A DNA stretch of 45,731 bases, from positions 15,770-61,500 of the forward strand of contig JAADHN010000094.1 in NCBI GenBank assembly GCA_013151865.1. The letters are read 5' to 3'. This DNA is from Kiritimatiellota bacterium. GTDB lineage: Bacteria > Verrucomicrobiota > Lentisphaeria > Oligosphaerales > JAADHN01. The translations under genes were made by a program, and so were the position numbers. The notes under the pieces were generated by a model. The model was not told where the DNA came from. It worked only from the letters and a program-made list of their open reading frames with translations, and ran no database searches. Below are positions 8,152 through 29,918 of this stretch, piece by piece; the stretch's first letter is position 1, and each line of letters opens with the position of its first letter.

Positions 8152-9450
8152 ATGAGCAGTATCAGTGCAATGGCACGGGCGGCAAAGACCGCCTCTGTCC
8201 CGCTGGCCGCCGCATCGACCGAGGCAAAAAACCAAGCGCTGGCAGCCATTGCAGCTGCCCTCGACCGGCGTGCGGACGAGGTCTTGGCGGCAAACCGGGA
8301 AGACATCGCCGAAAGCGAAACGAATCGGATCGGCAAGGCCCTGCTCAAGCGCCTCAAGTTCGACCGTGCCAAGCTCGACGGAGTCCTTCGCGGCCTTCAA
8401 AGCCTGATCTCTCTGCCCGACCCCGTGGGACGGATCCTCTCGGCCGTCGAACTGGACCGCGGCCTCGAATTGCACAAAGTGAGCTGCCCCATCGGCGTGA
8501 TCGGGGTGGTGTTCGAGTCGCGCCCGGACGCTTTGGTGCAGATATCGAGTCTCTGCCTCAAGAGCGGCAATGCGGTCTTGCTCAAAGGCGGCAGCGAAGC
8601 CCGCCGCACGAACCGCGTTCTGGCCGATACCATCCTGAGTGCCGGGGTCGACGCCGGAATGCCGTCGGGCTGGCTGCAGTTGCTCGAAACCCGCGCCGAC
8701 GTCAACGAAATGCTGGCGCTCGATGACGACATCGACCTCTTGATCCCCCGGGGTTCGAACCAGTTTGTACGGTATATCATGGACCATACCCGGATACCCG
8801 TTCTCGGACACGCGGACGGTATCTGCCACGTCTATGTAGACCGTGACGCCGACCCGGCCATGGCCGAAGCGATTGTGCTGGACTCCAAGTGTCAATACGT
8901 GGCGGTCTGCAATGCGCTCGAGACTCTGTTGGTCCACGCCGAACTCGCAGAGACCTTTCTGCCGCGCGTGCAGCAGGCCTTCGCCCTCCGCGACGTCGAG
9001 CTGCTCGGCTGTCCCCGCACCCGGGAGATCATCGACATAGCCCCGGCCACGGAAGAAGACTGGCGGACCGAGTACCTCGACTATCGCCTGTCGATCCGGG
9101 TCGTGCCCGGTCTCGATGCCGCCATCGCGCACATCAACGAGTATGGGTCCGGCCATACGGACGCCATCGTCACCCGGGATGCGACCGCCGCCGAACGGTT
9201 CATGGACCGAGTCGATTCCGCCAACGTTTTCTGGAACTGCAGCACCCGGTTCAGCGACGGTTTCCGATACGGCCTCGGGGCGGAAGTCGGCATCAGCACC
9301 AATAAGATCCATGCCCGCGGTCCGGTCGGCCTCGAAGGCTTGACGATCTATAAATGGAAACTTCGGGGGCATGGCCACGTGGTCGATGACTACGCCCGCG
9401 GAGGCCGCAGATTCACGCACCGTTCCCTGGGGCCGGCTCCGGAGCGATAA
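8152..9450 (+). CDS. proA: Gamma-glutamyl phosphate reductase
   Basis: A 432-residue cytoplasmic enzyme that reduces gamma-glutamyl phosphate to glutamate semialdehyde with NADPH, the second step of proline synthesis. It has the aldehyde-dehydrogenase-like fold seen throughout ProA: IGVIGVVFESRPD (about 114-126), SLCLKSGNAVLLKGG (about 133-147) and the catalytic cysteine in VCNALETLL (Cys253). The C-terminus GAEVGISTNKIHARGP is typical. The ATG at 8152 has GAGG eight bases upstream; an in-frame GTG at 8143 overlaps that site and is unlikely. The partner proB is not in the window. It has its own promoter and appears monocistronic. Confidence 0.96.
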   Translation: MSSISAMARAAKTASVPLAAASTEAKNQALAAIAAALDRRADEVLAANREDIAESETNRIGKALLKRLKFDRAKLDGVLRGLQSLISLPDPVGRILSAVELDRGLELHKVSCPIGVIGVVFESRPDALVQISSLCLKSGNAVLLKGGSEARRTNRVLADTILSAGVDAGMPSGWLQLLETRADVNEMLALDDDIDLLIPRGSNQFVRYIMDHTRIPVLGHADGICHVYVDRDADPAMAEAIVLDSKCQYVAVCNALETLLVHAELAETFLPRVQQAFALRDVELLGCPRTREIIDIAPATEEDWRTEYLDYRLSIRVVPGLDAAIAHINEYGSGHTDAIVTRDATAAERFMDRVDSANVFWNCSTRFSDGFRYGLGAEVGISTNKIHARGPVGLEGLTIYKWKLRGHGHVVDDYARGGRRFTHRSLGPAPER

Positions 9451-15103: not shown

Positions 15104-18100
15104 TCAGTCCGGCCGAATTCCTCGCCACCGATACACTCGACGCTGGTGCGGCCCGAATGCGTCGCGAAGGACGCCGTCGGCGATTCTCACCGTGCGGTCT
15201 TCGAACAGGACGACGGCATCCGCATTCTTCGCCCCGGCCACCGAAAACGCCGTGGTCACGGGCCGGTCCTCGAGGTTGACGGCCAGCAGGTAGCGATTCG
15301 TCCCCGACGACCGGGTGGTGAAACAGATCGCCGGGGCGGAACACCGGACTTCAGGGCGCGGTCCCGGCGAAAACAGCACGCCCGCCAGCGACTGCAACTC
15401 CCGATTCGCGCGGACCATGGCGCGCCAGTGCGTTTTCCCCGCGGGGTCGCCCATGAAGTAGACGACACCCGAGGCCCCGGAAAGCACGCACGCCCAGGTT
15501 TGCGCGGTCTGTACGTCCGGAGTCGGCTCTTGACTGTGGTTCTGCAGTTGATTGCAGGTCAGGAACATGAATACCGGACGCCCGCCGGGATCGGCGGCGC
15601 GCCGCAGCATGGCCACGTCCCGCACGACTTCGACCACTTTGCGGCCGGGACGGTTGGTGAGGTAGTCGTCGATACTGACGATGTCCCCCGGCAATCCTGC
15701 GAAATTCGAGGGAATACCCATGACGGTATTGTTCATGTACACCGGGTGCAGGGGATCGCGCTGCTTGAAAAAGGCGAGGGTTTCCTTGACCGGTTCGGGC
15801 GTGGTATAGAGTTCGGGTTCGTCCACCGGCATCCAGGCCAGCAACGCCGGCGACTGTTTCCAGCGGTCGATGAACGGGGCGAACATCTCCGACGTAACCT
15901 TCGGGAAGCCGTTGACAAAGATTAAGATCTTGATTCCGCGGGCTTCGGCCTGCGTCCGGATTCGTTCCCATACCTGCGCCGCCTTTTTTTCGCGGAAACG
16001 TCCCACGAACATGATCGAGCGGAAGCCGTTGTCCGCGTAATGGTCGATACCGAGGTCCACGGTTTCCAAGGGAGTGTGCGGCCATACCGCAAGGAGCGGC
16101 GCGATTACCAGGAACGGTTCGCCGTTGACCAGCAGGCATCGACGGAACCGGTCCACGGCCACCGCCGGGCCGTTTGCGGAGACTTTGCGGAGTTCGCAGG
16201 CGACGGCCGCGCGAACAGTTCCCCGGCCGTCCACCAGTTCGACCGACAACGGACGGGCCCCAGGGGCGATCTCCGCAATGGGAAAGGTAATCCGCACGCG
16301 TTCGTCCCCCGGCGGTACCGGTGCTTCCATCAGGAGTTTCTTCCGGCTCCCGGCAAGTCGGATGCGTACTCGGGCGTCTTGGCGCACCGCGGACGGCAGG
16401 CGCACAACACCCGCAAACACCGCCTCCGGCTCCAAAGTGTAGACCGACCGTTCGAGCCTGCCCTCGAACAGCGGATGTACCGGCGCAGACATCTGGAAAA
16501 ATCGAAGGACTTTTGCGGAGTTCGCAGTCGCAGTTGCGGTGTCCGCCCGCCGGATCGTGCCGCGCACGGAAACGCTGCCGGCTGGGGACGGCGCGAACCG
16601 AAGTGCCGAGCCGCGAAACCGCCGCTCAGCCCCATCGGGCAACGCGACCGGGCCGGAGCGCCAGGAAAGGCCGTCCCCCGCCGTCCCGTCAATCCGGACC
16701 TTCAGCGCGGAACCGGTGCGGTTGGTCAGACGCCCGGCCACGCTCCAAGAGCCGTTTCCGTCCGGACGGAGTTCGAGGCCCACCGGTACGATCCGAAATG
16801 GCCGGAAGTATCCGGTGTCGCCCCAGTCGATCACCGGAAACCGGTCTGGCACGTGAAAGTTCGGAGTTTCCGGTACGGCCGTGGAGGTGTACTCGCCCAG
16901 ACGCGCCTGGTGGCGGCACAGGTTCACGCCCCATCGGGGGCCGGTCAGCGCTGTGAGATCGAGCGCGGCCAAGGGCAGGGCGATCTCGATGCTCCAGAAC
17001 GTCTTGCCGATGTACGTCCTCGCCTGCCACTCACCGTCCCAGGTGCGATTGCGACCCGGACCGGCGTCCCAAAGACTTCCGCGGGCGTTGACCGCCAGGT
17101 GAAAATACGTCGACCGGTCCAGGTTGGTGTCGATCAGGATCTCGATTTCGTCATCGTCGAAGAGGGCCTCGTCGCGTTTGCGGGGCGGAGCGCGGACCTG
17201 ATCCGCGCGTGGATCGTGGCAGACCATGCCGATATAAAGCGTTCCTTTGGCGTATAGCATGAATGCCTCGGTTTTTGCCCGGGGCGCTTTCCCGCCCGGG
17301 AGAACCAGCGGCCAAACACGGGTGCGGTCGGTCCAGGCCGGTTCGTCGAGGCGACCGTCGAGGGTGGGCGCGGTTTCGGTCACGGCCAGTCGAATGGGGG
17401 AGGGGATCGCCGGCGCGGACGGTGCGCGCGTCGATTTCGGCGCGGAGTCCGCATCGGACAAGCGCCACGGAGTGGAGGCGGGGCCTTCTTCCAGTTGGGC
17501 GGCGTCGGCATAGAGGACGCCCGGGCCGTTGAACCGGACGCCCCCGCGCAGCACGTTCTTTTCCGGTTCGGCCAAGGTGAAACTGTACCGCTTCCAACTG
17601 GTCCCGACGGTAATGGCTTTCTTGTGCCAACGCCCGAGCCATTCCCAGATCCAAAGCGTGGCTTTGCGTCCCGGTGCGTCCGATTTCAGGTACACCGAAA
17701 ACGTGACCGGCCGGCCCATCGCGACGCCCGTGTTGGCGCAGAAGAAGCCGTTCCCCGTGCGACGTTGGTCGCCGGCCAGGCGTAGCGCACGACCGCCGTG
17801 AAAAGCGTCCGGCATTTCGATCACGCCCCAGTCGCGCCAGAGTATCTCCGGGGGAATGTGCGGGATGAAGCGCGGGATCCAGCCGGGCGGTACGGGGTCC
17901 CCGTCGGTCTCGAACGAGGCGTTGCGCAGCAGGTTCGGCGAGGGCATCGCTCCGGGCGGCGGCAGGGCGAACACCTGCACATCGTCGTAAGCGACCGGCG
18001 ACCCGGAGGTGGCCAGTACCAGCATCGGTTCGGCTTGGCGGATGCGGTTCGGCTCGCGGAACTCGGCCAGTTTGCGTCCGTCCGCGAACCAGCGGAACCT

Positions 18101-18637
18101 GTCGCCGCGCACCTGGATGTCGAAAGCGATCCATTGGCCGGGCCGCGGACGCCGGCTCGTGATGAGGCCGCCCAAAGCGCGTTTCTTGCCTTCGATGTTG
18201 TAAACGTACCAAAAACCGTCGGCCCGTAAGGTGAAGTGCACGCCCCGGATACGGACTCCGCACCACTGTCCCTTCAAGAACTCCGTCCCTTTGAGGCGAA
18301 GGCGCACCCGGATCGGGCCGTCGGCGGCGAGTCGCGCCGCGGCGGCGCGTGACCCACCCCGTTTCGTGGTCCGCAGCACGCCGTCCGTCACCGTCCACAC
18401 GGCCGGCGGGGTCAGTTTCCACTTTTCCGCCAAGAGTGCCGGCGTGCTGAAGTCGTCGGAGAATACGACGTTGCCGGCGGGCGGCGGCTGGGGAACGGCT
18501 TGCGCCGTTCGCAGTGCAAAGCGCGCCCGCCGTGACGTACAAGATTCGCATGGATCTGTTCCCCGTGTATTGCGGCGCTGAACATTCCCCCGGCTTTCGG
18601 GGCGAAACCGGTCGGTCGGGTCCGGCCGATCAGGCAC
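15104..18637 (-). CDS. Secreted multidomain CBM / TIM-barrel glycoside-hydrolase-like protein
   Basis: 1177 codons from a GTG. The domains in order are a concanavalin-like DUF1080-type sandwich (about 55-225: FSDDFSTP, DGFWYVYN, AYDDVQVF), a CBM4/9-like sandwich (about 230-395: NLLRNASFETDGD, ADAAQLEEG) and a CBM9-type cellulose/xylan-binding-like module (about 415-640: TLDGRLDEPAW, DDDEIEILIDT). After these come a linker sandwich and a TIM barrel (about 840-1110) with VNGEPFLVIAPL, MPVDEPELY and CNQLQNHSQEP, ending in a beta tail. The Glu in DEPE is a candidate acid. The substrate is unknown but surely a glycan. The N-terminus in this frame is Arg/Pro-rich without a signal peptide. A good signal peptide begins at 18551 in another frame, so the start is in doubt. 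It belongs to the leftward operon-like run. Confidence 0.78.
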   Translation of the reverse strand: MPDRPDPTDRFRPESRGNVQRRNTRGTDPCESCTSRRARFALRTAQAVPQPPPAGNVVFSDDFSTPALLAEKWKLTPPAVWTVTDGVLRTTKRGGSRAAAARLAADGPIRVRLRLKGTEFLKGQWCGVRIRGVHFTLRADGFWYVYNIEGKKRALGGLITSRRPRPGQWIAFDIQVRGDRFRWFADGRKLAEFREPNRIRQAEPMLVLATSGSPVAYDDVQVFALPPPGAMPSPNLLRNASFETDGDPVPPGWIPRFIPHIPPEILWRDWGVIEMPDAFHGGRALRLAGDQRRTGNGFFCANTGVAMGRPVTFSVYLKSDAPGRKATLWIWEWLGRWHKKAITVGTSWKRYSFTLAEPEKNVLRGGVRFNGPGVLYADAAQLEEGPASTPWRLSDADSAPKSTRAPSAPAIPSPIRLAVTETAPTLDGRLDEPAWTDRTRVWPLVLPGGKAPRAKTEAFMLYAKGTLYIGMVCHDPRADQVRAPPRKRDEALFDDDEIEILIDTNLDRSTYFHLAVNARGSLWDAGPGRNRTWDGEWQARTYIGKTFWSIEIALPLAALDLTALTGPRWGVNLCRHQARLGEYTSTAVPETPNFHVPDRFPVIDWGDTGYFRPFRIVPVGLELRPDGNGSWSVAGRLTNRTGSALKVRIDGTAGDGLSWRSGPVALPDGAERRFRGSALRFAPSPAGSVSVRGTIRRADTATATANSAKVLRFFQMSAPVHPLFEGRLERSVYTLEPEAVFAGVVRLPSAVRQDARVRIRLAGSRKKLLMEAPVPPGDERVRITFPIAEIAPGARPLSVELVDGRGTVRAAVACELRKVSANGPAVAVDRFRRCLLVNGEPFLVIAPLLAVWPHTPLETVDLGIDHYADNGFRSIMFVGRFREKKAAQVWERIRTQAEARGIKILIFVNGFPKVTSEMFAPFIDRWKQSPALLAWMPVDEPELYTTPEPVKETLAFFKQRDPLHPVYMNNTVMGIPSNFAGLPGDIVSIDDYLTNRPGRKVVEVVRDVAMLRRAADPGGRPVFMFLTCNQLQNHSQEPTPDVQTAQTWACVLSGASGVVYFMGDPAGKTHWRAMVRANRELQSLAGVLFSPGPRPEVRCSAPAICFTTRSSGTNRYLLAVNLEDRPVTTAFSVAGAKNADAVVLFEDRTVRIADGVLRDAFGPHQRRVYRWRGIRPD

Positions 18638-18715
18638 ACCGGGTGGAACCCTTTCTGTGCGACCGTCCCGGACGCGGGCGTGTTTTCGGCCGCGGTCCCC
18701 GGTCGGTTTCCGTAT

Positions 18716-21700
18716 TCATTCGCCCCCGGCAGCGGTTTGGGGCGCCAGTTGCGCCCGACTCCAGATCGCCCAGTCGAACCCGTTGGATCCCATGGAATCC
18801 GTGACGAGATCCAGCACGACGTCCCGTCCTGCAAAGTCCCCAAGGGAAACGCGTGCGGTGCGATGTCCGCACGCCGTCATGTCGTCACGCCAGATACAGC
18901 GGTTGTCGACATGTACCCGGAACGACACGCCCCGGCTGTTCCGGCCGGAGATGCCGTACCCGAGGTCGAGGGCCGCCGGAACGCGCGCCGGGAGTTTCAA
19001 GACCCATTGGAGAATCGTTTGTCCGTACGCCGGCGGGTGAACATCCACGGCACTCGTGCGGACGGCGCCGCCGCAATTCCGGTCCGCCCTCTTGCCTACG
19101 TCCGACCTCGGCGGCATGTCCCGCCAGAGTCCGCCGGGGACCATTTGGCCGGTTCGGTGCGGCTGGCCGAGCAAGTCGCACGGCATGTTCGGAATCGGAC
19201 GTCCGGGGATGCAGCGCAGCATCAGTTTGCCGGGCGCCCGGACCGGTACAGCCACGCCGGCTCTGCCGGTCCGGCGGAACGGCAGTGTCCGGCCGCGGTC
19301 GTCCGTTGCGGCCTGGACCGGATGCAGCGACTGGATGCGGACTTCGCCCTGCACCCCGTTCCGGCGTATAATGGGATCTCCCCAGCCGCACAAGTCCCAG
19401 GTCGGGTTGCCGGCCGGACCCGGGGTGACGATCAGCCGGAGCCGGATTTCTCTGTCCGCAAACTCGGACAGGTCGCACAGCATCGTCCTCCATCCCTTGC
19501 GGGCCACGTGGCGCTCGAATACCCGCCGTCCATCCACTTCGACGGCGTAGGTCACCCCGTCGGACCCACGGCTCGGATTGAGCATACCGGCGAACCAGTC
19601 GAGCACGAATCCGGTCTTTTCCGGCGGAAGCCGGACCTTGAACTCGGCGAAGACCGCGACAGGCTTGTCTTCTCCCCCTTTCCACGGTGGGTGGGCCGCG
19701 AAGCCGGGCAAGGTGACCACTCCGGAAAGGACCCGCCTCGCCTCGAACACGGCGCCGCGACCGAACGGCAGCACCTGTCCCCCGGAATCGCCGCCGAGCA
19801 ATCCGATTCGCATTCCCACCTGTTGTTGCGTCAAGACTACAATAGCCGTGCGCCGGCGATTCGGAACGACATCCGCCCGGATTACCTCCGGCGTCAATTC
19901 ACCGCGGTCGAGGGTCAACTCCGGTGCAAACCGCCGGAACCGAGGCGTCCCGTCAAACGGCTTTCCCGGGGTCAGGACGTGGGGAAGGAGCGGATTCATT
20001 CCACTGGTCCCCGTGTCATCGCCGACCGGCCAGCCCGGAACGCTCCACTCGGGGCCCACGGCGTCCAAACCCGACCGCCGCAACCAGACCGTGCGGTCCC
20101 CGCAAGTCAGACTTGCCTGTTCCGAATCGCCACGGACCCACCACAATCGTTGGGCCGGCGTTTGTTCCCGCCAGCAGAAGCGCACGTCTGCCGGCCATGG
20201 CCGGTCCACATCCGGAACGAATCCATATTTCTGGAAAAAAGCGGCGACGGTGTACAGGATCCGCGCCCCGGTCCCGTTCAGGTTCCCCGGGGCGCGTACG
20301 GCAAGCGTCGGGTACAGGCCGGCGGGCTCCGCCCTGCGCAGGAAATCCGCTGTTGCGGAGTTGGAGGCCACGTCCGACAGCGTCTGCGAATAGTGGCTGT
20401 AGTACTTCACTCTATCGCCGAACAGGTAAAAGCCGATGGGATGTCCCCTGCGTCGGTCGTCGTCGAACGGTGTTCGCTGCGTGAAGCTGAGGATACTGAA
20501 CGCGCTTTCGTTCAATTCCTCTCCGCCGAAGGCCACGCCCGGCACGGCTCGGATCAGCTCCGCGAACAATTCTTGTTTTGCCTGCCCCACATTGAGGCCC
20601 TCCACCGGGCCCGAGCGCGGGTTGGTCATCAAAAGGCTCACATCGAGATGAAACGCGTCTACCCCGTACTTCTTGCGCACGTTCCGAATGCAGTCCACCA
20701 ACATGCGGCGGTACGCGCCGCACCCCGGATGGATATCGAAGTGCCGGTTCGACTTCCGGGGGTCGTCCAGGCGCCATCCCTGGGCTTTCCCGGCACGGTC
20801 GCGCAGAATGAACGCTCGGAACCGCTCGAACTCGGAATTGGTCGGCGCGCAGCCGAACAGGTTGAAGTGCACCATCACTCGGAACCCGAATCGGTGCGCT
20901 TCCCGGCAGAACTGATCGAACCCTTTCGCCGCAGTGTAGTCCGGATAGTTTTGATCGTATCCGAACTTTCGCCAGTTCGGCAGCACGAGCAGGGTACGCC
21001 GGGGATCGAGCCGCGCGGCCAGGGCTGCCGGGAGTTCGGAATCCAGACCGGTGACTTTTACGAATGCACCGATTCTCGCCGTCCACTCCGGCGGACGCCA
21101 TCCGTTGGGGCAGAACGCATTTCGCATCCAGGCCCGGTAGCGCGCGGCCGGCCCCCGCCAGTCGCCCCGAAAAACATCGATGCGCCAGCGTACACTTCGA
21201 ACGCTGCGGACGGTTTCCGGAATGCCCTGGGCGTCCGTTCGGAGGCGAATCGAGTTTGAGCCGCTGGAACGCTCGACGATGAACGACTTCGGAGCAAAAT
21301 CCCGATCCACCGCCCAAATCGTCCAGCCGCTTTGCGGTCGAGCGCCCGAAGGCAGGTCGGGTCTTGGTTCGAAGACCGCCAACTGCGCTTCCCACTGGCG
21401 ATGTCCGCAATACCGGAACACACGCTGCGGTCCCGGCTGCGGATCCCGGAGCGTCAGCCCTTGCGCACCGACCGGGAGAGCCAGTTGCAGGCCGCGCCAA
21501 TCCGGTCCGCTCAACACGAGATCGACTGCGTCCACTCCGCCTTTGCGGCGAACAGCCTCGGCTTGCAGGACCAACCCGGCGTCGCGGTCCGCGAATGAGG
21601 CCGTCCAGCGCACTCCGTCGTCCGGCGAGCCGGTCTCGAATGTTACGCTTCGGCCGTCCCCGGAGATTTCGGCGCGAACATCCAACCGCCGACCGTCTCC

Positions 21701-22000
21701 GCTCCCCGGGATGGCCCGCGCCCCGCCGAAAGTTTTCTTGCCGGGAGCCAACAGTTCTTCGCCAGTCCGTCGATCCACGAGGGAGCGAAGGGCGCCCCGG
21801 AGAAACACCGCTCGCAAGACCGCGGATTCCGCGACTATCCGGTCCGTCTGCCGGCGGAATCTTCCCGGATCGCCGCCGCCTGCGGTCGCAGAGACAAGAA
21901 CGAGAGCAAACAAGCAGGCGGTCGCGTGCGATTTCCGCGACAGGCCTCGGCCCGGGAACGGCCGGCCGAAACGCGAAAAGGGGAAACGGGAGACCCCCAT
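18716..22000 (-). CDS. Secreted DUF6259-type glycoside-hydrolase-like protein with two C-terminal sandwiches
   Basis: 1094 residues. After a basic leader there is a hydrophobic segment (ACLFALVLVSATAGG, about 28-42), which fits a signal peptide. A beta domain (about 50-290) leads into a TIM-barrel core (about 310-600). This core has VKVTGLDSELPAALAARLD, WRKFGYDQNYPDY, GVDAFHLDVSLL and GVAFGGEELNE. Asp of HLDVS and Glu of GGEELNE are candidate catalytic residues, as in GH-D-like retaining barrels. I assign DUF6259 from memory of the family pattern. Two related C-terminal sandwiches lie at about 783-880 and 985-1080. The ATG at 22000 has CAGGA nine bases before it. It is 40 bp downstream of the 310-residue gene, probably cotranscribed. 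Confidence 0.78.
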   Translation of the reverse strand: MGVSRFPFSRFGRPFPGRGLSRKSHATACLFALVLVSATAGGGDPGRFRRQTDRIVAESAVLRAVFLRGALRSLVDRRTGEELLAPGKKTFGGARAIPGSGDGRRLDVRAEISGDGRSVTFETGSPDDGVRWTASFADRDAGLVLQAEAVRRKGGVDAVDLVLSGPDWRGLQLALPVGAQGLTLRDPQPGPQRVFRYCGHRQWEAQLAVFEPRPDLPSGARPQSGWTIWAVDRDFAPKSFIVERSSGSNSIRLRTDAQGIPETVRSVRSVRWRIDVFRGDWRGPAARYRAWMRNAFCPNGWRPPEWTARIGAFVKVTGLDSELPAALAARLDPRRTLLVLPNWRKFGYDQNYPDYTAAKGFDQFCREAHRFGFRVMVHFNLFGCAPTNSEFERFRAFILRDRAGKAQGWRLDDPRKSNRHFDIHPGCGAYRRMLVDCIRNVRKKYGVDAFHLDVSLLMTNPRSGPVEGLNVGQAKQELFAELIRAVPGVAFGGEELNESAFSILSFTQRTPFDDDRRRGHPIGFYLFGDRVKYYSHYSQTLSDVASNSATADFLRRAEPAGLYPTLAVRAPGNLNGTGARILYTVAAFFQKYGFVPDVDRPWPADVRFCWREQTPAQRLWWVRGDSEQASLTCGDRTVWLRRSGLDAVGPEWSVPGWPVGDDTGTSGMNPLLPHVLTPGKPFDGTPRFRRFAPELTLDRGELTPEVIRADVVPNRRRTAIVVLTQQQVGMRIGLLGGDSGGQVLPFGRGAVFEARRVLSGVVTLPGFAAHPPWKGGEDKPVAVFAEFKVRLPPEKTGFVLDWFAGMLNPSRGSDGVTYAVEVDGRRVFERHVARKGWRTMLCDLSEFADREIRLRLIVTPGPAGNPTWDLCGWGDPIIRRNGVQGEVRIQSLHPVQAATDDRGRTLPFRRTGRAGVAVPVRAPGKLMLRCIPGRPIPNMPCDLLGQPHRTGQMVPGGLWRDMPPRSDVGKRADRNCGGAVRTSAVDVHPPAYGQTILQWVLKLPARVPAALDLGYGISGRNSRGVSFRVHVDNRCIWRDDMTACGHRTARVSLGDFAGRDVVLDLVTDSMGSNGFDWAIWSRAQLAPQTAAGGE

Positions 22001-22040
22001 GGGAGTGGTCCTGGTTTTGAGGTCGGGCCCATCGGTCGAG

Positions 22041-22973
22041 TCAGTCGGATCGATTCCTGTCGGAAAGCGTGAACACGTTTTGCATCAGGTCGTTGAGGGA
22101 GCCGTCGTTTACGTCCCAAATGTGGATCGGACCGGTGCGGCATACGGCGGTCGGAGAAAAACGCAGCCACAAAGTCACGCCGTAGGTCTGCAAATTGAGG
22201 TGGGCGGACGCGGCGCCGGCGTTTGCGAACTCCGCAGCGCAGGGAGAACGGGGTTCGGCCTCGTCCCACAGAACCACGGCGGTTTCATCGGCCTCGAGAC
22301 GATAATCCGCCGTCGGACGCAGTTCGCGGCGGTGCGTGGCGGCCCGGCGGGCGCGCGGCGGGGGGTAATGGCCGGGGTACGCCCGGAATCCGAGGTCCAG
22401 GGCAGCGGGTTTATTCAGACCCTCCACCGTGCAGCGCAGCGTCAGGAAGTCGTCCGTCGCGCCGAGGGATATATCCAGCGTAACCACGGCCTCCGGGCAG
22501 CGCCAGCGCAACCGGGCGCGCGCCCTGTCGCCGCGGGGCTCGAGCACTTCGAACCGGGCCAATTGTTGTTTGAGGATTTCTTTCCCGTCGAGCCGCAGTT
22601 CGAAGAAGTTGTTGATATACCAATTGGCGGCATTGGGAGCGGTCATGCCGAGACCGGAACTCCCCTCGATGGACACGGGATCTTTGCCTTCGGCGTCGGT
22701 TACGTTCATCCAGTACCGAAGTACGTAGACGACCTGCGGGTTGCGCAAGGACAGTTCCCGCCGGTAATCCAAGGGGTTGGGGCCGTGGGCGCGATGCGCA
22801 GTGATCTGCACCCGCGTGACACGGCATTCGGCCGCGGCGTCCGGTCCGTGCTGCGAACTCCGCAGTTCCGCGGTCATGCCTTCGAGGATGGCCTGGGCGG
22901 CGTCCGCGGCTTTTGCGGACGCGCCGGCGAGCAGCATCGCGCCAATTGCGAGGCAGGCTGACAGTGTCTTCAT
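22041..22973 (-). CDS. Exported protein of unknown function
   Basis: 310 residues. The signal peptide MKTLSACLAIGAMLLAGASA with likely cleavage after AKA is clear and fixes the start at 22973, although the frame runs open to 23318. The rest is beta-rich with WYINNFFELRLDGKEILKQ, DFLTLRCTVEGLNKPAALDLGF and LQTYGVTLWLRFSPTAV. I do not recognise the family; it resembles a galactose-mutarotase-like or carbohydrate-binding sandwich only in composition. Its ATG overlaps the TGA of the upstream GH42-like gene (ATGA), so translation is probably coupled. The 1:1 coupling suggests it is a partner or accessory of that enzyme. Confidence 0.72.
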   Translation of the reverse strand: MKTLSACLAIGAMLLAGASAKAADAAQAILEGMTAELRSSQHGPDAAAECRVTRVQITAHRAHGPNPLDYRRELSLRNPQVVYVLRYWMNVTDAEGKDPVSIEGSSGLGMTAPNAANWYINNFFELRLDGKEILKQQLARFEVLEPRGDRARARLRWRCPEAVVTLDISLGATDDFLTLRCTVEGLNKPAALDLGFRAYPGHYPPPRARRAATHRRELRPTADYRLEADETAVVLWDEAEPRSPCAAEFANAGAASAHLNLQTYGVTLWLRFSPTAVCRTGPIHIWDVNDGSLNDLMQNVFTLSDRNRSD

Positions 22974-25900
22974 GGCCGTTTCATCCAGTGTCGGGTGGTG
23001 AAGCCGGTGTCGATGTCCGTCACTTCCAGGGTCCAGCCGCCGGTGGGCGCGTCGGGTGGAAGAAGCAGTTCGGCGTGGAACGTGCCGTTGTCCACGAGCA
23101 GTTTGCGTCGCAGCCACGGTTCGCGGCGTCCATCCGGCGGCAGGAGTTCGATGCGGACCGCATGTGCGGTTTTCGAGAGGCCCTTGCTGTCGGCCCGGAG
23201 CAGGCGTCCGCGTACCTGGACACGGCGTCCGAACGGCGCGGCGTCTGCGAACTCCGCAGCATCGATGCGGGGCGGCAGCACGGGATGGGGCAGCAGCGCG
23301 AACAACTCGGCGCGGCAAGTGGTGAGCGTGACGACCGTCCGGTCCACGGGGCCCAGATACCGGCCCCGGCGCATGTCGTAGAGGTGGGCGTGTTCGGGCA
23401 GGCGCAGATCGGCCAGGATCGTGCGCTCGTCCGTACTCCTGTCGTCTCCGGGCATGATGCCCAAAAACGTGGCGTTGCCCCGGGTGAAACGGACGGTCAT
23501 GACGTTCGGGAGCGGTTGCGCGTCCGCGTCCAAGACCCGGACGGCGGGGCGGACGCCGAGTTCGGCCAAAAGCTGCGACAGAGCCCGGCGGAGCGTGGCG
23601 CCGTCCCGAGCCTTACGCACTCCGAGGTAACCGCCAAAAGCGAAGTTGAGCAGCGCGGCGCGTTTCTGCGGACTCCGCAGCAGCACGGGCGTGGCGTCGA
23701 TGCGTCCCATGGGGGTGAAGTCCGGCGGCATTTTTGCATTGCCGAGCAGGATGCCCTGGCAGGGGAGGCGTTGTTTGTCAAGGTCGAGGACCGGAGATTT
23801 CGGGGGGAGTACGGTCTGTTGTGCTCCGGCGGGCTGGACGCCGAAGATCGTGGCCAGCGGCTGCTTGGCCCACGGACCGGCGTGTGCGTTTTCGACCGCA
23901 GGCGGCAGGTCGGCGAGGAGCGTTCCGCCTTGGAGCTGGAAGCGCCGAACGGCCTGAGCCTGGGCGGCATCCATGGCCTGGGCCAGCGGTAGAATGAGCA
24001 GGCGGAACCGCTTCTTGTCGAGGATGCCGGCGGCCACTTGCGCGTCGGAGACATACTCGTACTGCAGACCGATGTCGTTCAGCAAGGCGCCCAGGGCGTT
24101 GAGCACGGCATCGTGCGACGCGGAACGGTCCCAGAAGGTATTGGCGTGGATGGCCGCGGGCGAGTAGTAAACCGCGATGCCGTCGTTTTCCCGGACCGCA
24201 TTGAGCAGGAGCTTGTCGAACCCGCCGCGAATGATGCGGGCATTGCGCGCGGTTTCCACGAAATGCGGCAAGGGACGAAGGTCCGGGGCGAACCCGACCT
24301 CGTGGGCCATGGAGGCGTGGCCGTAGGTGTTGAAGTACCAGGCGCTGTTGAAGCTCTGAAACAGGCTGAACCACGGGAAATAGCGTTGAACGGTCAGGCG
24401 CCGTCGGAAGGTGTATGAGCCGTACCAGTAACTGGACATGGTGCCGGGCTTGTGGAAAGAACGTACCAGGTTGCCCCCGGCAGGGCGACTGGGATACGGC
24501 ACGAAGAGATTGATGCCGCGGAGCATGCCGTACCAGTCGAAGGCCCCGAAACTGTCCAGGCGTCCGCTGCCTTCATGGCCGACTTTGGCCTCGGGGTCGA
24601 TCCGGTGGATAGTGTCGGCGAGAGAAGCGAAGATGCCGGTCCAGGAATCCTCCATGCACAGGCGGAAATCAATCCAATGCGCAGCGGCCTTTTGTGCACG
24701 GGCGTCGGCCAACCAGATCGGCTGGGCGTCTTCGAAGGCGGTCAGTTGCGTACCCCAGGCGCGATTCAGCGCCGCGACGTCGCCGTATCGCTTCCGGAGC
24801 CAGCGGCGAAAATAGGCGACGGACGACGGGGCCGAGCAGTACTCGGCGCGACCGCCCGCGAAGTAGTTTTCGTCGCCCAGGCTGTATCCGACCGGCGACA
24901 TGGGGCGGAACTGTCGCGCGGAGTCCGTTACCTGCTCCTGGAGTCGCTTGCGGTACTCCGGGTCGGTGACCGGCGGGCGACGGGCGTGCGGGTCGGCACC
25001 CGCGGGCGGCGGCGAAGTGTCGGTCCGTACGCTGCAAATGTAGGGGAGCAGGCTCATGCCGGCACGGACGGCATCCGTGGAACGCCGCGCGCCGTCCTTT
25101 CCCCAGATGTGACTTGGGTATACCACGTTGATGCCGGCGTTGGCAAATGCCCGCTGAATGAGGCTGTCCTCGTAGCTGTCGCGGGCCGGACCGTACCAGG
25201 CCACCAGCTGGAATTCATCGTCTGCGGGTCGCCAGGCCCGGAAGAATTCGGCCCGTGCACGGGCCGCCCTGCGCCCGGCAACGCGCAGCTCGAGGTCGAG
25301 TCGGTGCCAAGCGCAGCGCGGCGGCGGCAGCACCTGCGAAATCCCCATTTCCGCGGCGTTCGCGGGCCAGGGCTTACTTTGGGTATCGAGGATGCGCCCG
25401 TACGCGTCGCGGACGCCCCAGCGCAGTTCCGTGTCTTTGCCCGGCGGGCCGGTCAGGCGTAACCGGACGTCGATGGAGGTATCGGAGGGGAAGCGTTCGC
25501 GGGCAAAGGCGACGGCGGCGAAGTCCGTGCCGTCGACCGTGGTCCGAAAGCAGGCGAAACCCGCGACACGGTCGTCGATCAGGACACGCACCACGGCGTA
25601 GGCCGTGCCGGCGGGCAGGTCCGCCGGCGCGGGAACGTCGACCTTGGTCGCCGCGGCGGGGTCGGTCCCGGTGCGGAACGGTGTACGGCAGCGAGCCAGT
25701 TCATAGCCGTCGGCATCGTACCACACCGTCTCGACGGTCCCCTGCCAGACCGGCGTCGCGGAACTCACGGCCAACGACAGCGACTTGGGCGGGGTCTTCC
25801 AATTCCAGCGCCAAGCCTGCGGGGTCTGCAAGCGCACGGGCAGTTTACGGCGGGCGCACCACAACATGGCGCGAATGGCCAGGGCCTGGGCGATTTCGTA

Positions 25901-26620
25901 ATCCATGCGTGTCGACCGGACGTCTTCCCGAGGGGTGAGGTAACGGCGGCAGACGGGGTCCGACGGGTACATGAACATGAGTACCCGGCCCTTGCCGAAG
26001 GTCACGGCCCGGAACAAGGGCGTTTCCTTGCCGTAGTTGTCGAGATTGGCGGCCTGTTTCCAAGGAAGGCCGGCGGCCACTCCGGCTGTGTCGTCCTTGC
26101 AGTCGAGCGCGAGAACTTTGTCCAAATACTTGGCGCCCTGCCGATAGCCGAGGAAAAGGCCGGCGCCGTTCTTCACGCGTTTCAAGATGGTGTAGCGTGC
26201 CCAGAGCGGTAGCGCCTTCCAGTCCGAGCCGACGACATACACATCGTAATCGCCGTCGAGTTTCCGGCGCAGGTCCTGTTCGCGTTCGTTCCGGAATAGA
26301 CCGGTGACGTAGGCCCAGGAACGGACCCGTTGCACTTCGTAGCCCAAGGCGCGGCGCGTGGTGGTCATCATGGGGGTTGCCTCGAGTTCGAATCGTTGCT
26401 CGAGTTCCACGGTTTCACGATGGCAGAACCACGGGGCGATGAGCAGTGCGCGGACAGGCGTACCGGTGATCGGTTTTGCCCAGGCGATGTGCGGTGTGAC
26501 CACGGCGTCCGAGACTTCGTAGAATTCCGGCTCGTACGGCACGGTGCGCACGGCTCGGCAGACGCCGGGGAGCAAGAGAAACGCGGCCGTACAGACGTAT
26601 GCTCCGATGATCTTTGTCAT
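22970..26620 (-). CDS. Secreted GH42-like beta-galactosidase family protein
   Basis: 1216 residues. The signal peptide MTKIIGAYVCTAAFLLLPGVCRA sets the start at 26620 with AGGGA seven bases upstream; the frame extends to 27079 without support. An N-terminal Rossmann-like region (about 40-245: DYDVYVVGSDWKALP) resembles a class-I amidotransferase-like fold. A sandwich follows (about 255-480) and then a GH barrel (about 490-830). The acid/base candidate is Glu in GYSLGDENY (about 583), and the nucleophile candidate is Glu in KVGHEGSG (about 681). Next comes a GH42 trimerisation-like domain (about 835-990: RFRLLILPLAQAMDA). A C-terminal sandwich ends the protein. It is the first gene of the leftward secreted-enzyme run. 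Its true substrate is not evident. Confidence 0.78.
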   Translation of the reverse strand: MTKIIGAYVCTAAFLLLPGVCRAVRTVPYEPEFYEVSDAVVTPHIAWAKPITGTPVRALLIAPWFCHRETVELEQRFELEATPMMTTTRRALGYEVQRVRSWAYVTGLFRNEREQDLRRKLDGDYDVYVVGSDWKALPLWARYTILKRVKNGAGLFLGYRQGAKYLDKVLALDCKDDTAGVAAGLPWKQAANLDNYGKETPLFRAVTFGKGRVLMFMYPSDPVCRRYLTPREDVRSTRMDYEIAQALAIRAMLWCARRKLPVRLQTPQAWRWNWKTPPKSLSLAVSSATPVWQGTVETVWYDADGYELARCRTPFRTGTDPAAATKVDVPAPADLPAGTAYAVVRVLIDDRVAGFACFRTTVDGTDFAAVAFARERFPSDTSIDVRLRLTGPPGKDTELRWGVRDAYGRILDTQSKPWPANAAEMGISQVLPPPRCAWHRLDLELRVAGRRAARARAEFFRAWRPADDEFQLVAWYGPARDSYEDSLIQRAFANAGINVVYPSHIWGKDGARRSTDAVRAGMSLLPYICSVRTDTSPPPAGADPHARRPPVTDPEYRKRLQEQVTDSARQFRPMSPVGYSLGDENYFAGGRAEYCSAPSSVAYFRRWLRKRYGDVAALNRAWGTQLTAFEDAQPIWLADARAQKAAAHWIDFRLCMEDSWTGIFASLADTIHRIDPEAKVGHEGSGRLDSFGAFDWYGMLRGINLFVPYPSRPAGGNLVRSFHKPGTMSSYWYGSYTFRRRLTVQRYFPWFSLFQSFNSAWYFNTYGHASMAHEVGFAPDLRPLPHFVETARNARIIRGGFDKLLLNAVRENDGIAVYYSPAAIHANTFWDRSASHDAVLNALGALLNDIGLQYEYVSDAQVAAGILDKKRFRLLILPLAQAMDAAQAQAVRRFQLQGGTLLADLPPAVENAHAGPWAKQPLATIFGVQPAGAQQTVLPPKSPVLDLDKQRLPCQGILLGNAKMPPDFTPMGRIDATPVLLRSPQKRAALLNFAFGGYLGVRKARDGATLRRALSQLLAELGVRPAVRVLDADAQPLPNVMTVRFTRGNATFLGIMPGDDRSTDERTILADLRLPEHAHLYDMRRGRYLGPVDRTVVTLTTCRAELFALLPHPVLPPRIDAAEFADAAPFGRRVQVRGRLLRADSKGLSKTAHAVRIELLPPDGRREPWLRRKLLVDNGTFHAELLLPPDAPTGGWTLEVTDIDTGFTTRHWMKRP

Positions 26621-26793
26621 GAAGTGGTCCCTCGATGTTGCAGTCCTGTCTGATCCACATGTCACCTGCACGCCGGGGCCGGGAAAGGCCTTCTCGAATC
26701 GGTGTCGGCAGCCTCGATTCGCCTGCGTCGCAACGAGGATCGGTTCACCCGATCGAGTGCCGGCGGGCAGGGACACGCACTGCACATGCCGGC

Positions 26794-27684
26794 TCAGTAT
26801 ACTTCCGGAACAAAGGTCTGATCCTTGATCGGGGGCCGGATGTACCCTTTGTTCTCCTGGCGGGGCGGCAGTTCGATCTTCTGGACTTTCTCTTCCCTGT
26901 ACGGTATCAGACTGAGCAGGTGGTGAATGCAATTGAGGCGGGCGCGCCTCTTGTTGTCGGCCGGGACCACGTACCAGGGGACCTGTTTGATGTCCGTGTA
27001 ATTGAACATCGTGTCCTTGGCTTTCGAGTACTCGACCCAGCGCGAGCGCGATTCGAGGTCCATCGGGCTCAGCTTCCACCGCTTCGTCGGGTCTTCGAGC
27101 CGGGCCTGAAACCGCCGCTCCTGTTCTTCATCGGAAACGGAGAACCAGTACTTGATCAGGATGATGCCGGAACGCACCAGCATGCGCTCGAACTCCGGGC
27201 ACGACCGCAGGAATTCGTTGTACTCTTCATCCGTGCAGAACCCCATGACCCGTTCGACACCGGCACGGTTGTACCAACTGCGGTCGAACAGCACCATTTC
27301 GCCGGCAGCGGGCAGGTGGGCCGCATACCGCTGAAAATACCACTGGCCTTTTTCCTTTTCCGTCGGAGTCCCCAAAGCGACGACGCGACAGATCCGGGGA
27401 TTCAGGCACTGGGTGATCCGCTTGATGACGCCACCTTTGCCGGCCGCGTCCCGGCCCTCGAAAATGACAACGACCTTCAGTCCCTGTGATTTGATCCAGC
27501 CCTGTAGCTTGACCAATTCGATCTGAAGGCGGGCAAGTTCCTTTTCGTAGAACTTCTTGCCGATTTTCCGACGGTCTTTTGTCTCCGGTTCAATGAGCTT
27601 CGGTGGCATGGCCGCCTGCTCCGACCCCTTTTTTTCTGCCGGTGATGTCCTTTTCTTTGACGCGGCTTTGCCTTTCTTGGTCAT
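26794..27684 (-). CDS. ppk2: Polyphosphate kinase 2 family protein
   Basis: A 296-residue cytoplasmic kinase that moves phosphate between polyphosphate and nucleotides. Walker A GRDAAGKG is at 77-84 (Lys83). Walker B FDRSWYNRAGVERVMGF is at 133-149, with the conserved Asp134-Arg135. The lid-type region with KRWKLSPMDLESRSRW and DIKQVPWYVVPADNKRRAR follows. It is a single-domain form. The length and lid fit class I enzymes that make NTP or NDP, but class cannot be proven by eye. A Lys/Ala-rich tail of about 25 residues precedes the domain. GGAGG lies seven bases before the ATG. It has its own promoter and a 173 bp gap to the next gene. Confidence 0.93.
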   Translation of the reverse strand: MTKKGKAASKKRTSPAEKKGSEQAAMPPKLIEPETKDRRKIGKKFYEKELARLQIELVKLQGWIKSQGLKVVVIFEGRDAAGKGGVIKRITQCLNPRICRVVALGTPTEKEKGQWYFQRYAAHLPAAGEMVLFDRSWYNRAGVERVMGFCTDEEYNEFLRSCPEFERMLVRSGIILIKYWFSVSDEEQERRFQARLEDPTKRWKLSPMDLESRSRWVEYSKAKDTMFNYTDIKQVPWYVVPADNKRRARLNCIHHLLSLIPYREEKVQKIELPPRQENKGYIRPPIKDQTFVPEVY

Positions 27685-27972: not shown

Positions 27973-27991
27973 CGGGCTGGTTTACAGCCCG
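27973..27991. repeat. Hairpin spanning the stop codon of the phospholipase-like gene
   Basis: On the minus strand CGGGCTG-TAAAC-CAGCCCG forms a seven-pair stem whose loop contains the TAA stop. No T-run follows, so intrinsic termination is doubtful; it may protect the mRNA 3' end. Confidence 0.35.
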
Positions 27992-29640
27992 GCGCCTCCG
28001 ACCCGAACCCTCGGGTCGACCCACTCGGCAATGTCCCAGCCGGGATCGTTGCGGAGACCGGCGTCGGAGACGAGCGAGAGGCGCACGGTCTTGCCCGCGA
28101 ACTCCGACAGGTCGGCACGGACGCGTGCGGAATTCGCACCGCGGACGTGGCGTTCGAACAGAGTGCGCGGCGGCGAGCCCTGAAGGGCGACCTCGAGGCG
28201 GAACGTAACGCCGTCCGACTTTTTCCGTGCACTCTTTCCATGCAAGCGCACCTGTGCCTCGAAAAAGATCGGTTTGACCGTCGGAAATTGCACGGTGAAT
28301 GTGCCGCGCACGAACCCGGGGGCAGAAGTTTTCCACGGGCCGTCGGTCAGGAGCACGGGGACGCTGCGCCCGTTCCGGCGCAACACATCGAAATCGAACC
28401 GGGCCCCGGAAGGGGGCTGTCCCCAGGCGGTTACCGGTCCATCTTCGCCCGTGCGTGTCTTGTATCGCCGCACGGCCCAATCGCGGTAAAGCGCAAGGCA
28501 GAGTGTTGACCCCGGTTCCGACGGGACTTCGATGACCGCGCCGGCGGTATCGGTCTCTTTGCGGGCTTCGGCGCAAACATCGGGCCGAGCGCTGTCGCGT
28601 ATCCGGACTTCGGCGGCTGCCTCTGCGAACACTCGAGCGATCATAGCCACGACGTTCCGGTACGTCGCCTGCCAGTGGAAGGCGGCATCGCTGGTGCGGA
28701 TGGCGTCGTCCAGCGACACGTCCATGTGTTTCATCATGGCCTGCACGCGTCGCCGTTCGTGCCGGACGCAGCCAGCGAGGGGGCCGCCGCCGTGCAGCAT
28801 GGGAGCGGCGCAGACGTCGTAGTACGACGGATCGACGACGTCGAGCACGCGTTTGGGCCAGCCGGTATAGGCGCTCTTTGAACAGGCGAGGCCGCAGTAC
28901 GGCAGCACGCCGTTGTCCAGATGGTAGAGCGGAAGTTTCCCGAGTTCCGCCTCGGCATTGTCCGGAATCCCGTATTCTTTTCGGCCCCGTTCCCAGAGCA
29001 TGACGGCGAAGAGTTCCTGGACCACGCCGTAACTCCGGCTTCCGGTCGCGGCGAAAACGGCGTCCCGCAGTTCCGGGGATGCATCCCACCACCGTTTGGC
29101 GGGGGCGTGACAGAAGTAATCGGCCAGGAGGTGCGTGATGTATCCGCAGGCGAAGGCGAGCGAGACTTCGTTCCAGTCTTTTCGGGGGGAGCGCACCAGC
29201 AGGAGTCGATGCCGTTGAACGTCCCCGGCGTCCACGTGCCACGATACGGTCCAGGCTCCGTGCAGCAGTGCGGTGAAGTACGGTTGCGCCTTTTCCAGGT
29301 CGAAGGCTTCCGGGTGTTCGTACTCGACAGTATACAGCGGAAACCAGTGGGAGGCCCTGTAGCCGCGGCCTTTCTGAACGATATCCGGCCCTTCCGAGCC
29401 CCAATAGTAAGTCCAGCGATAACGTGTGAGGATACGGGCCAAGTTACGTGCCGCAGGGTCCTCTCGTCCCTTCAGTTCTCCGAGGGCGGCGGCCGCCACG
29501 AACAAGTGCCCGGCGGGACTGCAGGCGTCGGCAGGGATGACCGCAAGCAGCAGCAGAGCGGTCAGCAGTCCCCGGACCTGCATGGTCTTGGGGGGCGGAC
29601 GGAGAAACCCGACCTCGGTCCGCGTCAAGGGTTGTATCAT
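27982..29640 (-). CDS. Exported zinc-dependent phospholipase C-like protein with C-terminal sandwich
   Basis: 552 residues. After a long n-region there is a hydrophobic segment (LLTALLLLAVIPADA, about 25-39). The next part (about 40-330) has the spaced His/Asp motifs of zinc-dependent PLC: AGHLFVAAAALGEL, SEGPDIV, HWFPLYTVEYEHPEAF, SWHVDAGD and GYITHLLADYFCH. These would bind the metal cluster. A separate beta-sandwich (about 440-545) follows and resembles those of the DUF6259-type protein. The ATG at 29640 has GGAGG eight bases upstream. The ATG at 29583, closer to the signal, has no site, and the GTG at 29667 is also possible. The substrate may be phospholipid or something else. It is separated from ppk2 by 297 bp with its own hairpins. 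Confidence 0.72.
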   Translation of the reverse strand: MIQPLTRTEVGFLRPPPKTMQVRGLLTALLLLAVIPADACSPAGHLFVAAAALGELKGREDPAARNLARILTRYRWTYYWGSEGPDIVQKGRGYRASHWFPLYTVEYEHPEAFDLEKAQPYFTALLHGAWTVSWHVDAGDVQRHRLLLVRSPRKDWNEVSLAFACGYITHLLADYFCHAPAKRWWDASPELRDAVFAATGSRSYGVVQELFAVMLWERGRKEYGIPDNAEAELGKLPLYHLDNGVLPYCGLACSKSAYTGWPKRVLDVVDPSYYDVCAAPMLHGGGPLAGCVRHERRRVQAMMKHMDVSLDDAIRTSDAAFHWQATYRNVVAMIARVFAEAAAEVRIRDSARPDVCAEARKETDTAGAVIEVPSEPGSTLCLALYRDWAVRRYKTRTGEDGPVTAWGQPPSGARFDFDVLRRNGRSVPVLLTDGPWKTSAPGFVRGTFTVQFPTVKPIFFEAQVRLHGKSARKKSDGVTFRLEVALQGSPPRTLFERHVRGANSARVRADLSEFAGKTVRLSLVSDAGLRNDPGWDIAEWVDPRVRVGGAGL

Positions 29641-29918
29641 CGGGGCCGCCTCCATATTCGAACGCACCCGGTCCGTAACGTATCACGCCGTCGCTCGGGC
29701 GTCTGCGGCGTTTGATCTGAGTATTGCACGGGCCATCTGCTGCGACGACGTACCTTTATCGCCTTCGGAACATTGCTGCCGCGCATCGACCGCGGCAGTG
29801 TTTCGATCCTGCTTCGCCCGGCGTTCGACGCAATGACCCGACCCCGTACAAACTGCGTGCTTCCGCGACGAGGCTCATGAATTCAGCAGGGCCAACGGAG
29901 AAACCGAGCGGGCCGGGG

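Follow-up and report, generated by a model that had tools for sequence, protein, structure and literature searches.

The window, i.e., the whole stretch of 45,731 nucleotides analysed here, carries genes for exported enzymes on its minus strand, and the 13-bp word TGCGGAGTTCGCA, the sole 13-mer that occurs five times in the window, lies inside these genes together with several variant forms (Table 1). The five exact copies and the two variants TGCGGACTCCGCA and TGCGGAATTCGCA, first noticed in a sequence-only reading of this DNA, were all confirmed at their positions. In the window 20 sites with at most two mismatches are present, compared with 1.96 ± 1.38 in dinucleotide shuffles, and the number 20 was never attained in the shuffled sequences. 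The consensus, (T)TGCGRACTCCGCA(A), is a 13-bp dyad. For the 1369-residue protein encoded in the window no orthologues were found in named genomes.

Table 1. Copies and variants of the word in the window; positions are those of the window and the strand is that of the form given.
Feature	Position	Strand	Context
Exact copy, TGCGGAGTTCGCA	16186..16198	+	ORF 15104-18637(-), reads CELRK
Exact copy, TGCGGAGTTCGCA	16514..16526	+	ORF 15104-18637(-), reads TANSAK
Edge variant CGCGGAGTCCGCA, first base changed	17441..17453	+	
Exact copy, TGCGGAGTTCGCA	22224..22236	-	ORF ending at 22041(-), reads AEFANA
Exact copy, TGCGGAGTTCGCA	22852..22864	-	ORF ending at 22041(-), near start, directly after signal-peptide-like N-terminus, reads ELRSSQ
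Exact copy, TGCGGAGTTCGCA	23246..23258	-	ORF 22970-27079(-), GH42-like, reads AEFADA
Second consensus form TGCGGACTCCGCA, perfect dyad	23667..23679	+	ORF 22970-27079(-), reads LRSPQ
Centre variant TGCGGAATTCGCA	28126..28138	+	ORF 27982-29667(-), zinc-dependent phospholipase C-like

The source genome (G000; 6.21 Mb in 176 contigs) contains 247 exact copies of TGCGGAGTTCGCA, 110 on one strand and 137 on the other, and none of the reversed control; for TGCGRACTCCGCA, which covers TGCGGAGTTCGCA and its sister TGCGGACTCCGCA, the number is 417 (reversed controls, 0-1). In an 845 kb sequence sample of this genome the most over-represented 12-mers all fall within TGCGAACTCCGCA (35 copies) or TGCGGACTCCGCA (26 copies), and a Markov model of order 5 predicts about 0.16 for each of the two top 12-mers. 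The comparison with a Markov expectation, suggested in the earlier reading, thus reveals a strong genome-wide excess. Moreover, TGCGGACTCCGCA, there listed as a one-base variant, is real but is not a decayed form: its near-equal weight makes it a second consensus. Edge variants with C in the first place are over-represented as well (6 copies vs 0.2 expected in 845 kb). When synonymous codons were shuffled within genes we obtained 0.87 copies, and never more than 2 in 30 shuffles, compared with 53 observed, and hence neither a protein motif nor codon usage accounts for the word. This codon-aware background, together with the use of all reading frames, upholds the claim that no conserved protein motif explains the word, and the residues encoded at the sites did not turn out to be old and conserved. 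The word is free of stop triplets on both strands and can therefore occupy any frame, but this feature is only permissive since random 13-mers of equal composition lack stop triplets in 57% of cases.

One-mismatch counts in the G000 sample show a core, GCG-RA-C-TC-CGC, in which the GCG and CGC bases hardly ever vary; variation is tolerated at the outer T and A, position 5 is R, and the centre and position 9 are partly tolerant. The same pattern of tolerance was seen in G064, another genome of the class Lentisphaeria. A palindromic 10-mer, GGCCCGGGCC, is also over-represented in the G000 sample (L039-L078) and the window, with 72 copies on both strands vs 17 expected.

Using a home-made gene finder, according to which 83% of the DNA is coding, we placed 53 of 61 copies (87%) in coding DNA; two window copies scored as intergenic actually lie within the ORF ending at 22041, which was missed by the gene finder. 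Intragenic copies are found on the same strand as the gene (28) or on the opposite strand (25), and every frame is used, AEFA, ADSA and CELR being the readings preferred. The setting in exported-enzyme genes holds for the window but not in general: elsewhere two sites each are present in the genes for Dxr, MutY and ThiD, and further copies in those for RsmH, a SpoU-type methylase, asparagine synthase and ComEC. Since copies also sit in such housekeeping genes, the link to exported enzymes is incidental. There is mild, approximately threefold clustering, with 12 neighbours within 1 kb vs about 4 expected (two overlapping data sets). A gene of the Y1 (IS200-like) transposase family (L074:1968-3056) also bears the word, with no sign of a link to its origin.

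In the Lentisphaera genome G055 the sites are spread along both large contigs. On one of these (C1) all five copies of the asymmetric form TGCGAACTCCGCA below about 1.0 Mb are on the minus strand, and all three beyond 1.7 Mb are on the plus strand, a possible replication-strand bias that is absent in G000. Replication polarity as a general property was rejected: in 20-kb stretches of G055 the asymmetric form tends to the negative-skew strand (3 sites only), and G000 shows no relation to skew.

To understand how the sites originate we compared them with orthologous positions. Alignments with solved homologues are ungapped across the word for both sites in Dxr, the first site in MutY, the RsmH site and both ThiD sites, while the second MutY site adjoins a three-residue length difference. 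Likewise, 7 of 7 orthologous positions that carry the word in G055, in the second Lentisphaera genome G060 or in both are ungapped and differ by substitutions only; three are intact in both species and the others are 1, 1, 2 and 3 substitutions away. Within the word 7 of 91 bases have changed between the two genomes, compared with 99 of 420 in the 30-bp flanks (p=3e-4), i.e., the word changes about threefold more slowly. These alignments, a small sample in the case of the seven positions, show that sites arise by base substitution and are then retained. The clean gaps expected for inserted elements were not found in these orthologues, and the suggestion of mobile palindromes is thereby contradicted.

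The bases flanking the word favour T at -1 on the left and A at +1 on the right in genomes of both 63% and 41% GC, most strongly in Lentisphaera. Base-pair covariation between the flanks is absent in the G000 and Lentisphaera sets (21 vs 21.7 and 31 vs 28.4); a weak signal in a third set was set aside because most of its members were fetched with the T...A-flanked pattern. The absence of covariation and of strand bias in genes argues against a hairpin or an RNA/ssDNA element, and taken together with the symmetric flanks favours a symmetric protein that recognises the DNA duplex. One pair of inverted words 15 bp apart in G060 (L122, about 1483-1516; G060:C6:327196) forms a 15-bp stem followed by a U-run (-25.8 kcal/mol, z -8) with a terminator-like shape.

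Counts in 198 genomes of the class Lentisphaeria demonstrate a strong, genome-wide word of this class, one that is apparently undescribed in the literature searched. Tens to hundreds of copies are present in G000, G001, G003, G004, G006, G017, G019, G061, G064 and the Lentisphaera genomes G055 and G060. The genomes with an excess, cultured Lentisphaera included, span many families and 41-63% GC with 12-569 copies each (about 2-146 per Mb), and the word is identical at 63% (G000), 56% (G064) and 41% GC (G055 and G060). Families such as f8, f14, f16 and f19 have essentially none, and the sister groups g9 and g13 are non-carriers as well. Near relatives contrast sharply, with 421 vs 1 copies in family f9 and 350 vs 2 in f7; Lentisphaera genomes have 43-51 vs 12 copies and the sister genus g37 has none. 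Outside the class, sampled genomes of the phylum have at most 3 copies each, which is the chance level. Among the matches listed for a public genome collection, repeats occur mainly in records named Lentisphaeria, Lentisphaerae or Lentisphaera and most others are singletons. A literature search did not return the word in a bacterial context, and none of the papers listed for Lentisphaerae in combination with transformation, palindromes or uptake sequences deals with such a word. Among the matches listed to the flanked word the only other recurring name is Reyranella (Alphaproteobacteria; L181, L197, L215, L232 and L256), where the matches may be due to chance in high-GC genomes.

We consider it probable that this class-specific word, which arises by substitution, serves as a recognition word for a putative dimeric DNA-binding factor. 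The word, with the consensus given above, would be a genome-wide recognition site of the Lentisphaeria, and its reader is most likely a dimeric protein with sequence specificity for duplex DNA. Point substitution would create and remove sites wherever a near-match meets permissive codons, and favoured copies would be kept in one of two ways: DNA that carries the word would be preferentially taken up and recombined, as in the case of DNA uptake sequences, or selection would act on a chromosome-marking function. We lean slightly towards an uptake or self-recognition type of drive, since copy numbers differ several-fold to several-hundred-fold between close relatives (12 vs 43-51; 1 vs 421) and since, like paired uptake words, two inverted copies form a terminator in one place. 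For a more specific version, in which a palindromic self-recognition word with a putative dimeric reader (uptake receptor or chromosome organiser) is the same from 41% to 63% GC and has been lost repeatedly together with its reader, we regard the chances as even. Against the recognition word stand its densities, the failure to detect ComEC in the word-rich draft G004 and the occurrence of ComEC and PilT also in word-free genomes; that no reader gene was found among the candidates examined likewise counts against it. The two other suggestions of the sequence-only reading, a nucleoid or regulatory site and a DNA-uptake-like word, both stay alive given a strand-neutral, mostly coding and patchy excess confined to one class.

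Words that recur exactly throughout a genome are uncommon, and the known cases have led to mechanisms, e.g. uptake specificity, Chi, KOPS and matS. To our knowledge, no signature word of the uptake or nucleoid type is known from this part of the PVC group, and the present word would be the first. As an uptake word it would extend sequence-specific transformation beyond two proteobacterial families, and as a chromosome site it would open up the nucleoid biology of the PVC group. Sister genera that are rich in the word or free of it constitute a natural experiment, and the presence of the word in the cultured genus Lentisphaera makes the putative reader accessible biochemically.

A DNA uptake sequence proper, where a type IV pilus/competence receptor prefers word-bearing DNA and transformation drives accumulation, is a possibility that we hold tentatively. 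As in Neisseriaceae and Pasteurellaceae, an exact short word is present in both orientations, mainly in genes (here including DNA-repair and housekeeping genes), with near-exact copies, gain by substitution and a patchy distribution among relatives; inverted pairs of uptake words have been discussed as terminators (PMC2346458), which the L122 pair resembles. Nearly all genomes encode ComEC and PilT, but these do not separate carriers from non-carriers: ComEC was detected in 184 of 197 genomes, whether or not they carry the word, though not in G004 (353 copies; a draft genome, 92% complete), and PilT in 32 of 32 genomes including word-free ones. In addition, uptake words are not known to have dyad symmetry, and the approximately threefold clustering under 1 kb counts against uptake, which does not predict it. 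The word is also much sparser than Neisseria uptake words, for which the quoted densities are far above those seen here (PMC2346458), and it is identical throughout the class whereas uptake dialects differ even inside a single family (PMC3630211).

A chromosome-organising or nucleoid-occlusion site resembling those of MatP (matS), Noc or SlmA, with a dimer bound to hundreds of dispersed sites and possibly bridging neighbours, is a slightly less likely possibility. The sites of these proteins are dyads of about the same length dispersed in coding DNA (matS is 13 bp long), and the odd centre, the symmetric flanks, the short-range clustering, the class-wide identity and the spread along both large G055 contigs all fit. 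That spread, however, is unlike the confinement of matS to the terminus domain, and neither a ter or ori focus nor an intergenic preference was seen. No MatP homologue was detected in 32 genomes (0/32), with E. coli as a positive control. Also unlike these sites, the word reaches 569 copies and is lost in whole families, and with zero to hundreds of copies between relatives it cannot serve an essential class function.

Creation and maintenance by an orphan DNA methyltransferase and methyl-directed repair bias, as for the cyanobacterial HIP1 palindrome (GCGATCGC), which has been linked with methyltransferases (PMC4390886), we judge improbable. HIP1 is likewise a GC-rich, highly iterated, intragenic and substitution-borne palindrome with a patchy distribution across a large clade (PMC4390886), and the G/A alternative at position 5 of our word is a transition. 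HIPs, however, generally reach 1000-2000 per Mb with core sites of 5-8 bp (PMC4390886), while the Lentisphaeria word has 13 bp and an odd centre, and its frequency per Mb is lower by a factor of about ten to several hundred. Methyltransferases of the C5, N4/N6 and Dam types were rejected as correlates: the presence of the families PF00145, PF01555 and PF02086 does not follow that of the word, and none of the three was found in the carriers G055 and G060.

A small mobile palindromic element inserted in frame is very improbable: exact copies are dispersed inside genes and Rickettsia palindromic elements and REP/BIME are dispersed palindromes too, but the orthologues lack gaps at the word, 13 bp is not a multiple of three and all frames are used, neither a conserved longer unit nor a target duplication was seen, and the copies are not extragenic. 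A compositional or codon-usage artefact, to which a GC-rich word devoid of stop triplets might point, has a negligible likelihood in view of the Markov and synonymous-shuffle expectations, the reversed controls and the excess also at 41% GC.

Finally, six exact words and several one-mismatch forms are present in 13.4 kb of a Mu-like viral contig (L351; IMG/VR 3300022555_000207) with genes for a Mu-like transposase, a TniB/MuB-like ATPase and Gam. They comprise two single sites and two tandem pairs spaced 18 bp, are dense at 621-1755 and 8643-8720, and the tandem pairs lie inside the gene for an HTH protein, where they read ADSA-x-x-ADSA. The six to seven words on this contig argue against a pure self-mark, because such a mark should be missing there. 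A seventh exact copy was counted on L346, which covers a different stretch of this contig, and it may duplicate one of the L351 sites.
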